Assembly: GCF_014648275.1 (NCBI RefSeq)
Contig: NZ_BMQU01000002.1
Coordinates: forward strand, 186,001 to 250,000
From: Pseudomonas laurentiana
Lineage (GTDB): Bacteria; Pseudomonadota; Gammaproteobacteria; Pseudomonadales; Pseudomonadaceae
Length of the DNA: 64,000 nt
Reading direction: 5' to 3'
Shown here: piece after piece, positions 28,029 through 30,709 of the stretch
Layout of the letters: the number at the start of each line of letters is the position of its first letter
Numbering within the stretch: the stretch's first letter is position 1
Position numbers and translations under genes: made by a program
Notes under the pieces: generated by a model
Databases searched by the model: none
What the model was told of the DNA's origin: nothing
What the model saw: only the letters and a program-made list of their open reading frames with translations

Positions 28029-28072
28029 GTCTCCTGCCTGCGAGCATGACTACAACAATAAGGTGCAAAGCC

Positions 28073-28738
28073 ATGTACAAGATTCTGATCGCCGACGACC
28101 ACCCGCTGTTTCGCGAGGCCATCCACAATGTGATCAGCGACGGCTTCCCTGGCAGTGAAGTCCTGGAAACCGCCGACCTGGATAGCGCCCTGGAACTCAC
28201 CCAGAGTGCGGATGATCTCGACCTGATCCTGCTCGATCTGAACATGCCGGGCATGCACGGCCTGGGTGGGCTGATCAACCTGCGTAACGAGGCGCCCACG
28301 GTGCCCGTGGTGATCGTGTCGGCTGAACAGGACAAACAGGTGGTACTGCAGGCCATTACCTACGGCGCAGTGGGCTTCATCACCAAGTCCTCACCACGCT
28401 CGCAAATGACCGAAGCCATCGAGCAGATCCTCAATGGTAATGTCTACCTGCCGCCAGACATCATCCGTACCCAGAAGAACACCAGTCGACGCAACCAGAA
28501 CGAGCCTCAGGGGTTTGCCCCGGAGTTGCTCCAGGCGCTGACCCGCAAGCAGTTGCTGGTGCTTGAACGCATGACCAAGGGCGAATCGAACAAGCAGATC
28601 GCCTACAACCTCGACATCGCCGAGACCACGGTCAAGGCCCACGTCTCGGCCATTCTGCGCAAGCTCAACGTACATAACCGGGTTCAGGCGATCCTCAGTG
28701 CCGGCGACATCGACTTTACCGCCTACCTGCGACGCTGA
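28073..28738 (+). CDS. agmR: LuxR-family response regulator AgmR/ErbR (PedR1-like)
   Basis: NarL/FixJ-type regulator of 221 residues, the length of AgmR. Receiver [16 protein letters not shown], phospho-Asp in [13 protein letters not shown] (about 56), LuxR HTH near 160-220 ([31 protein letters not shown]). Start 28073 follows AAGGTG. AgmR/ErbR/PedR1 controls alcohol and glycerol metabolism and PQQ-linked genes in pseudomonads. It sits directly after the CXXCW gene. The PedS1-type partner is not recognised beside it. Confidence 0.85.
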
Positions 28739-28827
28739 GCTGCCGGGTTTATCGTACGCATGCAAAAAGACTATTGAATCGGCAGGCCGCCCTACAGTAA
28801 GCTCGGACCTATCAACTGGAGCCAGAC

Positions 28828-28962
28828 ATGTCACCTACCACCCTCACTCAAGCACGTCACACCGGTCGCCTCGCGCAGCCGCTGCTGGCTATTGCCGAGT
28901 GCGGTACCTGCGCTCCAGCCGGCTTTTATTTTGGGTATTGGTTTAGCCAACGGCGCCGCTGA
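28828..28962 (+). CDS. Aromatic-rich leader peptide (attenuator) before DAHP synthase
   Basis: A 44-codon ORF with GGAG 6 bp before its ATG. Codons 33-39 read Phe-Tyr-Phe-Gly-Tyr-Trp-Phe, six aromatic codons in seven, then SQRRR and a stop. A strong intrinsic terminator begins 51 nt after the stop and the aromatic biosynthesis gene follows. This is the arrangement of ribosome-stalling attenuation, in which scarce charged tRNA-Phe/Tyr/Trp would favour read-through. A GGCGCCG/CGGCGCC pause-like hairpin (28952-28958 with 28972-28978) lies at the stop. The alternative antiterminator pairing was not resolved. Confidence 0.75.
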   Translation: MSPTTLTQARHTGRLAQPLLAIAECGTCAPAGFYFGYWFSQRRR

Positions 28963-29013
28963 TACCTACACCGGCGCCCACTTCCAAGGGGACGCCAGGC
29001 ACAGAGAATACTC

Positions 29014-29052
29014 AACCCCCGGTCGGCTCCCCGACCGGGGGTTTTGTTTTTG
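29014..29052 (+). terminator. Intrinsic terminator (attenuator) in the DAHP synthase leader
   Basis: 13-bp perfect arms 29014-29026 and 29031-29043 around CTCC, followed by TTGTTTTT. It lies between the leader peptide and the synthase gene, so it must be read through for expression. Confidence 0.88.
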
Positions 29053-29086
29053 GGCGTCGTACACCACACACATTGAGGAATAACAC

Positions 29087-29239
29087 ATGAACTACAGCAC
29101 TTATTACCGTTACCCAGCGTGCATCGCCTGGCGATTTAGCCAGTTCCGTTCGGGCCTGACTGCCGCCGCCGATCGGTCACTCACAGGTGGCACCGACACA
29201 GATGATCTTAATCCGGCCCACTGTCGAACACCTCGATAG
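29087..29239 (+). CDS. Second aromatic-rich small ORF before DAHP synthase
   Basis: A 50-codon ORF with GAGGA 7 bp before its ATG, beginning MNYSTYYRYPACIAWRF. It has Tyr at codons 3, 6, 7 and 9, Trp at 15 and Phe at 17 and 20, unusual density for a random frame. It starts after the terminator and stops 48 nt before the synthase ATG. It may be a second leader peptide tuned to tyrosine or a small protein translated with the synthase. A GC-rich hairpin (about 29241-29258) follows, with no T-run. Confidence 0.55.
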   Translation: MNYSTYYRYPACIAWRFSQFRSGLTAAADRSLTGGTDTDDLNPAHCRTPR

Positions 29240-29287
29240 GGCCGGCTGCGCGGGCCAGAACCCGCTCTTCGCCAAGGATTCCCGAAC

Positions 29288-30394
29288 ATGCAATCGTCCA
29301 GCCTCGCTCTGCCCCTGACTCAACCGCAACCTCAGGTTGCCGCCAACACCGCTGTCAGCCAACGCCTGCCCAGCAGCTTCATGCTCAAGCAGCACCTGCC
29401 GCTTTCCAATGCGCTCGGCGCACAGGTCGAGCAGCACCGCCAAGCCGTCAAGGCCATCCTTGAAGGCCGCGATCCACGCCTGTTGGTCATCGTCGGCCCC
29501 TGCTCCATCCACGACCCTCACTCCGCACTGGAATACGCCGAACGTCTGGCCCGCCTGGCCGAACGCGTCAATGACCAGATGCTGCTGGTGATGCGCGCCT
29601 ACATCGAAAAGCCACGCACCACGGTCGGCTGGAAAGGCCTGGTCTACGATCCGCACCTGGATGGCAGCGATGACATGCACGGTGGCCTGAACCTGTCACG
29701 GCGCCTGATGCTGGACATGCTCGCCCTCGGCTTGCCGATTGCCACCGAATTGTTGCAGCCAATGGCCGCAGGCTACTTCGACGACCTGCTGAGCTGGGCC
29801 GCCATCGGTGCCCGCACTACCGAGTCACAGGTACACCGCGAGATGGTCAGTGGCCTGGGTCTGCCAGTAGGTTTCAAGAATGGCACCGACGGCAGTATCG
29901 GTATTGCCTGCGACGCCATTCGCAGCGCCGCTCACGGCCATCGTCATTTCGGCGTCGATGCCCAAGGACACCCGGCGATCATCGAAACGCTGGGCAATCA
30001 GGATACCCACCTGGTATTGCGCGGTGGTCACAAGGGCCCCAACTACGATCGCCAGAGCATTGAGCAGGCCCGCAAAGGGCTGGAAAGCGTCGGCTTGGCG
30101 CCGCGTATCATGGTCGACTGCAGCCACGCCAACAGCGGCAAGGACCCAGCCCGTCAGCCCCATGTGTTCAATGAGGTACTGGAGCAACGGCTGCAGGGTG
30201 ACCGTGCGTTGGTTGCCGTCATGCTGGAAAGCCATTTGTTCGACGGCTGCCAGGCGCTGGGCAAGCAACCACTGCGCTACGGGGTATCGATCACCGACGG
30301 CTGCCTGGGCTGGAACAGCACCGAGACGTTGCTCACGAATGCCGCCGACGCACTGCGCAAGAATGCGCAGGAAAAACCCGGCGCAATCCTGTAG
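29288..30394 (+). CDS. aroF: 3-deoxy-7-phosphoheptulonate (DAHP) synthase, class I
   Basis: First enzyme of the shikimate pathway: phosphoenolpyruvate plus erythrose 4-phosphate to DAHP. 368 residues, AroF/G/H type. Key blocks: VIVGPCSIHDP, MRAYIEKPRTTVGWKGL, GARTTESQVHREM, GFKNGTDGS, LRGGHKGPNYD, VDCSHANSGKDP and MLESHL, containing the metal ligands (Cys, His, Glu, Asp) of the class. AAGGA precedes the ATG. Expression is probably controlled by the upstream aromatic leader and terminator. Which amino acid inhibits the enzyme cannot be assigned; the symbol is by family. Confidence 0.92.
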   Translation: MQSSSLALPLTQPQPQVAANTAVSQRLPSSFMLKQHLPLSNALGAQVEQHRQAVKAILEGRDPRLLVIVGPCSIHDPHSALEYAERLARLAERVNDQMLLVMRAYIEKPRTTVGWKGLVYDPHLDGSDDMHGGLNLSRRLMLDMLALGLPIATELLQPMAAGYFDDLLSWAAIGARTTESQVHREMVSGLGLPVGFKNGTDGSIGIACDAIRSAAHGHRHFGVDAQGHPAIIETLGNQDTHLVLRGGHKGPNYDRQSIEQARKGLESVGLAPRIMVDCSHANSGKDPARQPHVFNEVLEQRLQGDRALVAVMLESHLFDGCQALGKQPLRYGVSITDGCLGWNSTETLLTNAADALRKNAQEKPGAIL

Positions 30395-30427
30395 GCTCGC
30401 CATTTTAACGCCAAGGAGCCCCTCATC

Positions 30428-30709
30428 ATGGCCAAAGCCACTGCCCGTCACATCCTGGTTGCCAGCGAAGCCAAATGCAACGAACTCAAAGCTGAAATCG
30501 AAGCCGGTGCCGACTTCGCTGAAATCGCGAAGAAGCACTCCACCTGCCCGTCCAGCCGTCAAGGCGGTGACTTGGGCAGCTTCGGCCCTGGCCAGATGGT
30601 CAAGGAGTTCGACACCGTGGTCTTCAGCGCACCGGTCAATACCGTACAGGGTCCGGTGAAGACCCAGTTCGGTTACCACCTGCTGGAAGTCACCAGCCGC
30701 CAGGACTAA
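30428..30709 (+). CDS. ppiC: Parvulin-type peptidyl-prolyl isomerase
   Basis: Single-domain parvulin of 93 residues without a signal peptide, so cytoplasmic like PpiC. Family features: ARHILVASE at the start, FAEIAKKHSTCPSS, GGDLGSFGPGQMV, FDTVVFSAPV and FGYHLLEV, with the His and Cys of the active site present. AAGGAG lies before the ATG, 33 bp after the DAHP synthase stop. A second parvulin occurs at 40775. Confidence 0.93.
   Translation: MAKATARHILVASEAKCNELKAEIEAGADFAEIAKKHSTCPSSRQGGDLGSFGPGQMVKEFDTVVFSAPVNTVQGPVKTQFGYHLLEVTSRQD

Follow-up and report, generated by a model that had tools for sequence, protein, structure and literature searches.

A putative two-stage, ribosome-read leader with tandem aromatic-rich reading frames upstream of the DAHP synthase gene aroF in pseudomonads and halomonads

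Background

Why should the gene for the entry step of aromatic synthesis be preceded by two short open reading frames (ORFs) in tandem, both rich in aromatic codons and separated by an intrinsic terminator? The question is raised by a locus in a stretch of 64,000 nucleotides from Pseudomonas laurentiana (contig NZ_BMQU01000002.1, positions 186,001 to 250,000), hereinafter the window, in which such a tandem lies directly upstream of aroF, the gene of a type I 3-deoxy-D-arabino-heptulosonate 7-phosphate (DAHP) synthase. The answer that we favour, and regard as rather probable, is that the 460 nt before aroF constitute a two-stage leader read by ribosomes, in which the first frame (ORF1) would act as a transcription attenuator and the second (ORF2) as a tyrosine-reading stage that acts on the flow of ribosomes into aroF.

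A sequence-only reading of the window had reported the two ORFs (44 and 50 codons), their aromatic codons, a 13-bp terminator between them, a gap of 48 nt between ORF2 and the synthase start, and good ribosome sites. All of these were recovered in the present analysis, the ribosome sites being the Shine-Dalgarno (SD)-like sequences GGAG before ORF1 and GAGGA before ORF2, and the interpretation built on them appears to be supported by the comparisons below. That reading had missed three things: the first unit is already an Rfam family, P15; a likely pseudoknot and conserved CGA codons lie within ORF2; and the same tandem is present in the Halomonadaceae.

The comparisons rest on two sets of loci. 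The first, or pseudomonad, set of 144 holds one locus per genome with a P15 match in scans of the genus and the order, and is made up of 136 genus loci, 3 from the same family and 5 from other families of the order. The second set comprises 92 halomonad loci, found with a covariance model built on the ORF2 element; one genome (G249) is in both sets, as L039 and L174.

Results and discussion

The first unit: an aromatic attenuator filed as a small RNA

The features of the first unit in the window are as follows.

28828..28962, + strand: ORF1, a leader ORF of 44 codons ending in AGFYFGYWFSQRRR, from the ORF list; the proposed aromatic sensor of the first stage.
28920..29041, + strand: RF00627 (P15, "Pseudomonas sRNA"), comprising the ORF1 tail, the attenuator and the terminator; cmscan, 102.6 bits.
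28933..28966, + strand: attenuator arms A (GGGTATTGG, over the Gly-Tyr-Trp codons) and B (GGCGCCGCTGATACC), from the P15 structure line and stalled-ribosome folds, with limits set by us.
28973..28996, + strand: attenuator arms C (GGCGCC) and D (AGGGGACGCC), from the P15 structure line and folds, with limits set by us; D is able to pair with the 5' arm of the terminator (antiterminator).
29014..29043, + strand: intrinsic terminator of 13 pairs (10 of them G-C) with a loop of 4 and the tail TTGTTTTTGG, the terminator as listed being followed by TTGTTTTT; from the terminator search.

Near its end ORF1 reads F Y F G Y W F, six aromatics in seven codons. A scan of the whole window with Rfam at gathering scores returned a single match, the small RNA (sRNA) family P15, which covers the full model length (1-119) and lies far above the gathering score of 70 bits, placing the element within the family. 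The 5' end of P15 falls inside the ORF1 aromatic codons and its 3' end at the terminator. It is present in 136 of the 149 genus genomes (135 above the cut-off), in 10 of 145 genomes drawn from the order (7 above the cut-off) and in 7 of 369 drawn from the class (2 above the cut-off). In all 144 loci of the first set there is a gene for a relative of the window AroF, with an aromatic-run ORF1 upstream whose stop lies 109-408 nt from the synthase start, and a terminator-like pattern follows ORF1 in 142 of them. In the 13 genus genomes that lack P15 the best synthase match is just 50-55% identical to the window AroF, as against 64-100% at the P15-bearing genus loci, and none of three leader motifs was found on either strand of the 14 synthase loci of these genomes. 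Hence, P15 travels with this particular aroF. The genome of the window has another DAHP synthase of the aroF type (G000:C16:105136-106020, L145; a frame of 390 codons), and its locus likewise contained none of the three motifs on either strand.

The sequence-only reading had suggested that ORF1 mixes codons for all three aromatic amino acids, and this holds across the set: the last eight codons up to Trp-Phe are 31.8% Tyr, 29.0% Phe and 13.0% Trp (50 distinct stretches). The region also folds as a ribosome-mediated attenuator might. In computed folds of 142 loci (2 of the 144 had no terminator by our pattern), the terminator 5' arm was paired upstream with a mean probability of 0.53 with a ribosome at the Trp codon, 0.27 with a ribosome at the ORF1 stop and 0.36 with no ribosome, and the stalled state exceeded the stop state in 137 of the 142; for the window the two values were 0.55 and 0.22. 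When the stretch before the terminator was randomised in 23 loci, the mean difference between stalled and stop states was 0.018 (sd 0.147), as against 0.228 for the natural sequences. As computed, the first stage would be expected to fold like a classical his/phe-type ribosome-mediated attenuator.

On this model, a ribosome on ORF1 would read Phe, Tyr and Trp codons situated within arm A or immediately 5' of it. A shortage of any of the three charged tRNAs would stop it there, so that B would pair with C, D would pair with the terminator 5' arm and the polymerase would continue; with no shortage, the ribosome would reach the ORF1 stop, the terminator would form, and the short RNA seen as "sRNA P15" would be made. 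We consider it very probable, from the comparative and folding evidence, that ORF1 is a general aromatic transcription attenuator, and we read P15 as a cis attenuator of aroF, a known kind of control and a new reading of an RNA catalogued as an sRNA.

Two loci from another family of the order (L036 and L038) have a P15-type attenuator before aroF and no ORF2, the aroF start following soon after the terminator; the first stage can thus exist alone. In two loci from another order of the same class (L181 and L182), an ORF1-like aromatic leader and a terminator precede a DAHP synthase, without TGGCGATTT. Two weak P15 matches with no synthase in the locus (L183, E 3.0e-4; L184, E 9.5e-4), and weak second matches on the opposite strand of the same place in three genomes, were put down to chance or to the symmetry of the terminator.

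The second unit: a conserved leader ORF biased towards tyrosine

The remainder of the leader and the gene that it would control are laid out in the window as follows.

29087..29239, + strand: ORF2, a Tyr-rich leader ORF of 50 codons (MNYSTYYRYP...AWRFS...CRTPR), from the ORF list and comparison.
29129..29138, + strand: TGGCGATTTA, that is, Trp-Arg(CGA)-Phe(TTT)-A, codons conserved across loci.
29132..29134, + strand: first conserved CGA codon, 14 nt 5' of the pseudoknot.
29146..29176, + strand: pseudoknot stem S1, 29146-29153 with 29169-29176, with a mismatch here at 29149/29173.
29162..29191, + strand: pseudoknot stem S2, 29162-29167 (GCCGCC) with 29186-29191 (GGTGGC), with weaker support than S1.
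29225..29227, + strand: second conserved in-frame CGA (in TGT CGA ACA), 15 nt 5' of the stop-to-SD hairpin.
29234..29236, + strand: a further in-frame CGA in the window ORF2.
29240..29273, + strand: hairpin spanning the interval from the ORF2 stop to the aroF SD; folding z of -1.1 at the window locus.
29288..30394, + strand: aroF, type I DAHP synthase of 368 aa, the gene under the proposed control; PF00793 at 2.5e-75, and the PRK12755 and aroFGH models.

The window ORF2 has Tyr at positions 3, 6, 7 and 9. A counterpart was found in 141 of the 144 loci by a peptide pattern; at the DNA level, searching with TGGCGATTT recovered 142, all but L036 and L038. The Trp-Arg-Phe is always encoded as TGG CGA TTT; since TGGCGATTT had first served to find ORF2, which makes its constancy there circular, this was repeated on the ORF2s found by the peptide pattern, where it holds in 141/141. 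The codon after TTT is AGC, ACC, ATC or AAC, i.e. ANC, in 142/142, and in 142/142 an ORF2 ATG is preceded, at a distance of 4-16 nt, by an SD-like AGGA, GAGG or GGAG. The conservation on which the sequence-only reading had made itself depend was found, over many species, for both frames and their aromatic codons, for ORF1 in all 144 loci and for ORF2 in 141.

The 11 codons before TGG are 27.0% Tyr in frame, against 0.0 and 1.2% in the other frames (108 distinct stretches), with a mean Tyr count of 2.97 against 0.37 in shuffled nucleotides; Phe accounts for 4.4% of the same codons and Trp for none. In both sets the stretch just upstream of Trp-Arg-Phe has 25-27% Tyr, 3-4% Phe and 0-1% Trp. Of the two suggestions that had been made for ORF2, a tyrosine sensor or a small protein, this composition favours the former.

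The ORF2-element covariance model gave matches in 13 of 293 order genomes, 7 of them in one further family, which we take to be the Halomonadaceae, and in 92 of 151 genomes of that family. A scan of named genomes with a pattern containing TGGCGATTT returned 89 stretches, of which the 80 listed belong to Halomonas, Vreelandella, Billgrantia, Chromohalobacter, Modicisalibacter, Onishia and Halovibrio. All 92 halomonad loci encode a relative of the synthase, and 90 keep TGGCGATTT upstream of it, the CGA being kept in the other two (TGGCGATAT and GGGCGATTT). Tyr makes up 25.5% of the codons before the halomonad TGG (78 distinct stretches), in the form of GYGYG and similar sequences, and is encoded there by TAT (160) more often than by TAC (59), the reverse of the first set (TAC 218, TAT 103). 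Tyrosine itself thus seems to be selected, because it is kept while its positions and synonymous codon differ between the families. Upstream of the halomonad element, a frame resembling ORF1, defined as having 4 or more aromatics within 9 codons, is present in 90/90 loci tested as against 2/90 on the other strand, and is followed by a loose terminator pattern in 82/90, a count made without a control. A weak match to the ORF2 element in another family (L180) has no synthase in its locus.

In sum, ORF2 is a well conserved leader that looks translated and is biased towards Tyr; it also carries conserved rare codons and a likely pseudoknot, both described below. We think it probable that ORF2 is translated and reads tyrosine.

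In one Pseudomonas genome (G046, L070) the frame changes late in ORF2, after the pseudoknot, and runs past the aroF start; this locus was omitted from ORF2 alignments and tail counts. Several other readings of the conserved codons were set aside. A regulon motif is unsupported by the genome count, TGGCGATTTAGC occurring once and TGGCGATTTA five times in the genome of the window, and tRNA-pairing and RNase E readings of TGGCGATTTA were considered and dropped. A small hairpin, UGGC-GAUUUA-GCCA, is lost in many alignment rows. Programmed frameshifting at CGA-TTT is likewise unsupported: +1 and -1 stops fall near aroF in 7 and 0 of 86 halomonads, and in 29 and 5 of 141 loci of the pseudomonad set.

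Rare CGA codons at set distances from predicted RNA structure

CGA supplies just 4.1% of the Arg codons in the synthase genes of the first set and 3.6% in those of the halomonads. Yet ORF2 contains a further in-frame CGA besides that of CGA-TTT in 141/141 loci of the first set and 90/90 halomonad loci, 231 in total. After the pseudoknot, CGA is found in frame in 122/122 loci of the first set, against 26 and 11 in the other frames, and in 90/90 halomonads, against 43 and 4; in pseudoknot-less loci a CGA follows Trp-Arg-Phe in frame in 19/19, against 2 and 3. The codon after the last CGA is ACA in 104/141 of the first set and TGT in 57/90 halomonads, and because this neighbour differs between the sets, it is the CGA codon itself that seems to be kept. 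The first CGA starts 14 nt before S1, and the CGA-Thr pair starts 15 nt before the first base past the ORF2 stop (130 instances over 142 loci). Each of these distances is close to that between the decoding site of a ribosome and its mRNA entry.

A likely pseudoknot within ORF2

The 46-nt element 3' of TGG CGA TTT is able to form an H-type pseudoknot in 123 of 142 loci, presence (123) and absence (19) having been sorted by eye. Counted from the T of TGG, S1 has 8 positions (nt 17-24 with 40-47) and S2 has 6 pairs (nt 33-38 with 57-62). In the pseudomonad set, identity filtering of 122 elements left 31 diverse sequences (alignment A1), in which 98.8% of cells are paired and 3 cells are changed on both sides, pair 20-44 being left unpaired in the structure and not counted. 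The corresponding halomonad alignment (A3; 42 of 88 elements after identity filtering, with L218 and L254 omitted for insertions) is 98.6% paired, and has 4 pairs and 23 cells changed on both sides; among 500 shuffles, none attained its paired percentage, cell count or score and 7 attained the pair count, and slid versions of the pseudoknot pair to at most 51%. In these 42 elements the both-sided changes are confined to S1, and every change in S2 is one-sided; across 80 distinct elements from halomonads a single S2 cell is changed on both sides. S1 is therefore better supported than S2. Pair 20-44 of S1 is formed in 79/80 halomonad elements. On this comparative evidence an H-type pseudoknot in ORF2 is likely.

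The 19 pseudoknot-less loci (e.g. L032, L106 and L123) have an ORF2 that keeps its Tyr codons, TGGCGATTT and the further CGA, and they suggest that the CGA codons and the stop-to-SD hairpin may be the older core.

How ORF2 might act on aroF

Two arrangements connect ORF2 to the gene, with aroF starts assigned by script. In the pseudomonad set, the ORF2 stop lies 40-50 nt from the aroF ATG in 132/141 loci, and a hairpin spans the gap from just past the stop to just before the SD, with a mean z of -2.46 against mononucleotide shuffles over 109 distinct segments, 102 of them below -1. In the halomonads (4 of 90 loci had no assigned aroF ATG), the ORF2 stop falls -17 to +7 nt from the aroF ATG in 63/86 loci. 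Because of this hairpin bridge in the one group and this stop/start proximity in the other, we suggest that ribosomes leaving ORF2 supply aroF.

ORF2 would be present on read-through RNA alone, unless there is an unseen promoter between the two stages. A ribosome on it would meet, in order, the Tyr-rich stretch, Trp-CGA-Phe, the pseudoknot, the second CGA and the stop, with the pseudoknot beginning 14 nt past the start of the CGA codon, roughly where the leading edge of the ribosome would reach it. Ribosome traffic through ORF2 would then most likely set aroF translation: a ribosome held at the Tyr codons would leave the pseudoknot folded, and we infer that the folded state favours aroF. That the second stage has its output at aroF translation is, in our estimate, slightly better than an even proposition. 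A more specific version can be offered tentatively. In it, ORF2 would be the first known case of a new kind of leader, a translational attenuator that reads Tyr; rare CGA codons would hold the ribosome up at a constant spacing from the pseudoknot and, later, from a second hairpin, and aroF translation would depend on how ribosome transit is timed rather than on masking of the SD. This stage would lie in series behind a transcription attenuator reading three amino acids.

Simple sequestration of the aroF SD by folds of the ORF2 region is unsupported, ribosome position having little effect in nested folds. Pairing of the pseudoknot segment CUCCG with the aroF SD was considered and not used: mean duplex energies in the halomonads are -8.1 to -8.5, against -5.6 to -8.2 elsewhere in ORF2, and the duplex energy in pseudomonads is about -6.

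The main alternative is that ORF2 acts on transcription, through Rho-dependent attenuation or RNA stability, and not on aroF translation. In other systems, a leader ORF that is not followed by a second intrinsic terminator can work through Rho, and the window has no terminator-like site on the + strand between ORF2 and aroF; the small change in SD accessibility given below also speaks for this alternative. The halomonad stop/start proximity and the pseudomonad stop-to-SD hairpin, however, point to translation, and we hold a transcriptional output of ORF2 to be unlikely, if still deserving of serious attention.

A second alternative is that the ORF2 region is a structured RNA, such as a ligand- or protein-binding element, and that its reading frame is there by chance. 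Conservation at synonymous sites is indeed seen for TGGCGATTT and the pseudoknot, and a translation switch based on nested folds was not seen in the computed folds. Against this, the Tyr codons and the second CGA cluster in a single frame, within which synonymous codons and positions vary from family to family, an ATG with an SD-like site is kept, and in most halomonads the frame comes to its end next to the aroF start; we judge this explanation rather improbable.

A third is that P15 is a free, trans-acting sRNA with targets of its own, its place before aroF being merely one of gene position. Rfam files it as a gene under the name "Pseudomonas sRNA", and P15 is among the sRNAs that Livny et al. 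are reported, in PMC2375449, to have detected. The RNA starts inside the codons of ORF1, precedes a relative of the synthase in 144/144 loci, is absent wherever this aroF is absent, and has the computed folding of an attenuator. An attenuator would give such a short RNA anyway. Trans action as its sole role appears quite improbable; it may have a second role in trans beside cis attenuation. Finally, ORF2 is most improbably a functional small protein sitting in the operon by chance: its SD-like site, similar length and conserved Trp-Arg-Phe core would suit one, but the window ORF2 has no Pfam or NCBIfam match, the residues conserved outside the Tyr stretch are mostly those that RNA pairing would fix, and the peptide differs widely between the families while the Tyr content and the CGA codons stay.

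Returning to the two-stage leader, several observations weigh against it. The first concerns direction: plain coupling would lower aroF on Tyr shortage, the wrong way unless the stalled state is special. In pseudoknot-free folds the accessibility of the aroF SD barely shifts with ribosome position on ORF2 (0.50-0.55 and 0.44-0.52), and no promoter-like site was found in 28300-30600. As for the first stage, the window fold without a ribosome has as high an antiterminator value (0.57) as the stalled one, and 8% of single shuffles attain the mean difference of 0.228. A tree-based covariation scan of 136 aligned leaders (those of the 144 loci other than L012, L036, L037, L038, L039, L040, L070 and L075) found no pair above background in the ORF2 region, and its one pair above background, mostly non-standard, lies within P15. 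Support for the pseudoknot comes mainly from the halomonads, with almost only one-sided changes in S2, and S1 pair 20-44 is formed in just 5 of 81 distinct pseudomonad-set elements, being usually a mismatch. The parts are also not universal, since 2/144 loci have no ORF2, 19/142 ORF2 loci have no pseudoknot and 59/151 Halomonadaceae genomes have no match to the ORF2 element. In the search for an ORF1-like frame in halomonads, reversed letters score 47/90, and part of that signal is therefore composition.

Relation to known systems

The attenuators of the Phe, His and Trp operons consist of a leader peptide and ribosome-mediated transcription attenuation. Like them, the aroF leader has a run of end-product codons, competing hairpins and an intrinsic terminator, and the modelled stall favours the antiterminator; unlike them, it would read three aromatics at once before a gene of the shared pathway and is followed by a second leader ORF. 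RF00627 occupies the same place as the ORF1 tail and terminator, but as filed it is an sRNA gene, here read as a cis attenuator, and ORF2 and the pseudoknot lie outside the family. Translational coupling with a pseudoknot is also a feature of repY-repZ of IncI-alpha plasmids, in which replication is controlled by antisense RNA; there too a leader ORF, a pseudoknot and a coupled downstream start come together, without amino acid sensing.

The sequence-only reading had stated that classical attenuators use one leader. This is right as far as the classical cases go, but two leader ORFs in series are known: the Salmonella mgtCBR leader is described as having two short ORFs, mgtM and mgtP, each with its own signal (ATP and proline, respectively), and its authors called it a singular example in 2012 (PMC3641672). 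The aroF leader likewise has two short ORFs, which are conserved frames with SD-like sites and different codon bias and might each answer a signal of their own; it differs in that its two stages would read related amino acids, the second being seemingly tied to translation, and in the genes concerned. The ermB leader also has two leader peptides, in translational attenuation, and is induced by erythromycin (PMC8274638). The uORFC-13-1 motif, which precedes aroF in Acholeplasma, has a candidate leader ORF containing one or more Phe codons, together with a terminator; outside Acholeplasma its authors found it in environmental sequences only (PMC8632094). It is a single leader, unrelated to the aroF tandem.

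Among the matches listed in searches of openly licensed PubMed Central papers, none describes ORF2 or reads P15 as an aroF attenuator; an earlier mention elsewhere is possible. Nor was any account found there of the conserved TGG CGA TTT, the further in-frame CGA, the pseudoknot, or the stop-to-SD hairpin or stop/start proximity.

If the two-stage reading is true, P15 would pass from a listed sRNA to a control element for the entry into aromatic synthesis in Pseudomonas. The importance of this step extends from amino acids to many aromatic natural products and production strains. Two amino-acid-reading ORFs in series, with CGA codons at about ribosome distance from RNA structure, would also offer a natural test of how slow codons act together with RNA structure on the bacterial ribosome.

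Neighbouring genes

Directly 5' of the leader, on the same strand, the window encodes a response regulator with receiver and GerE domains (28046-28738), the best NCBIfam match of which, ErdR, is below the cut-off. Directly 3' of aroF lies a gene for a small parvulin-type, PpiC-like peptidyl-prolyl isomerase (30428-30709).

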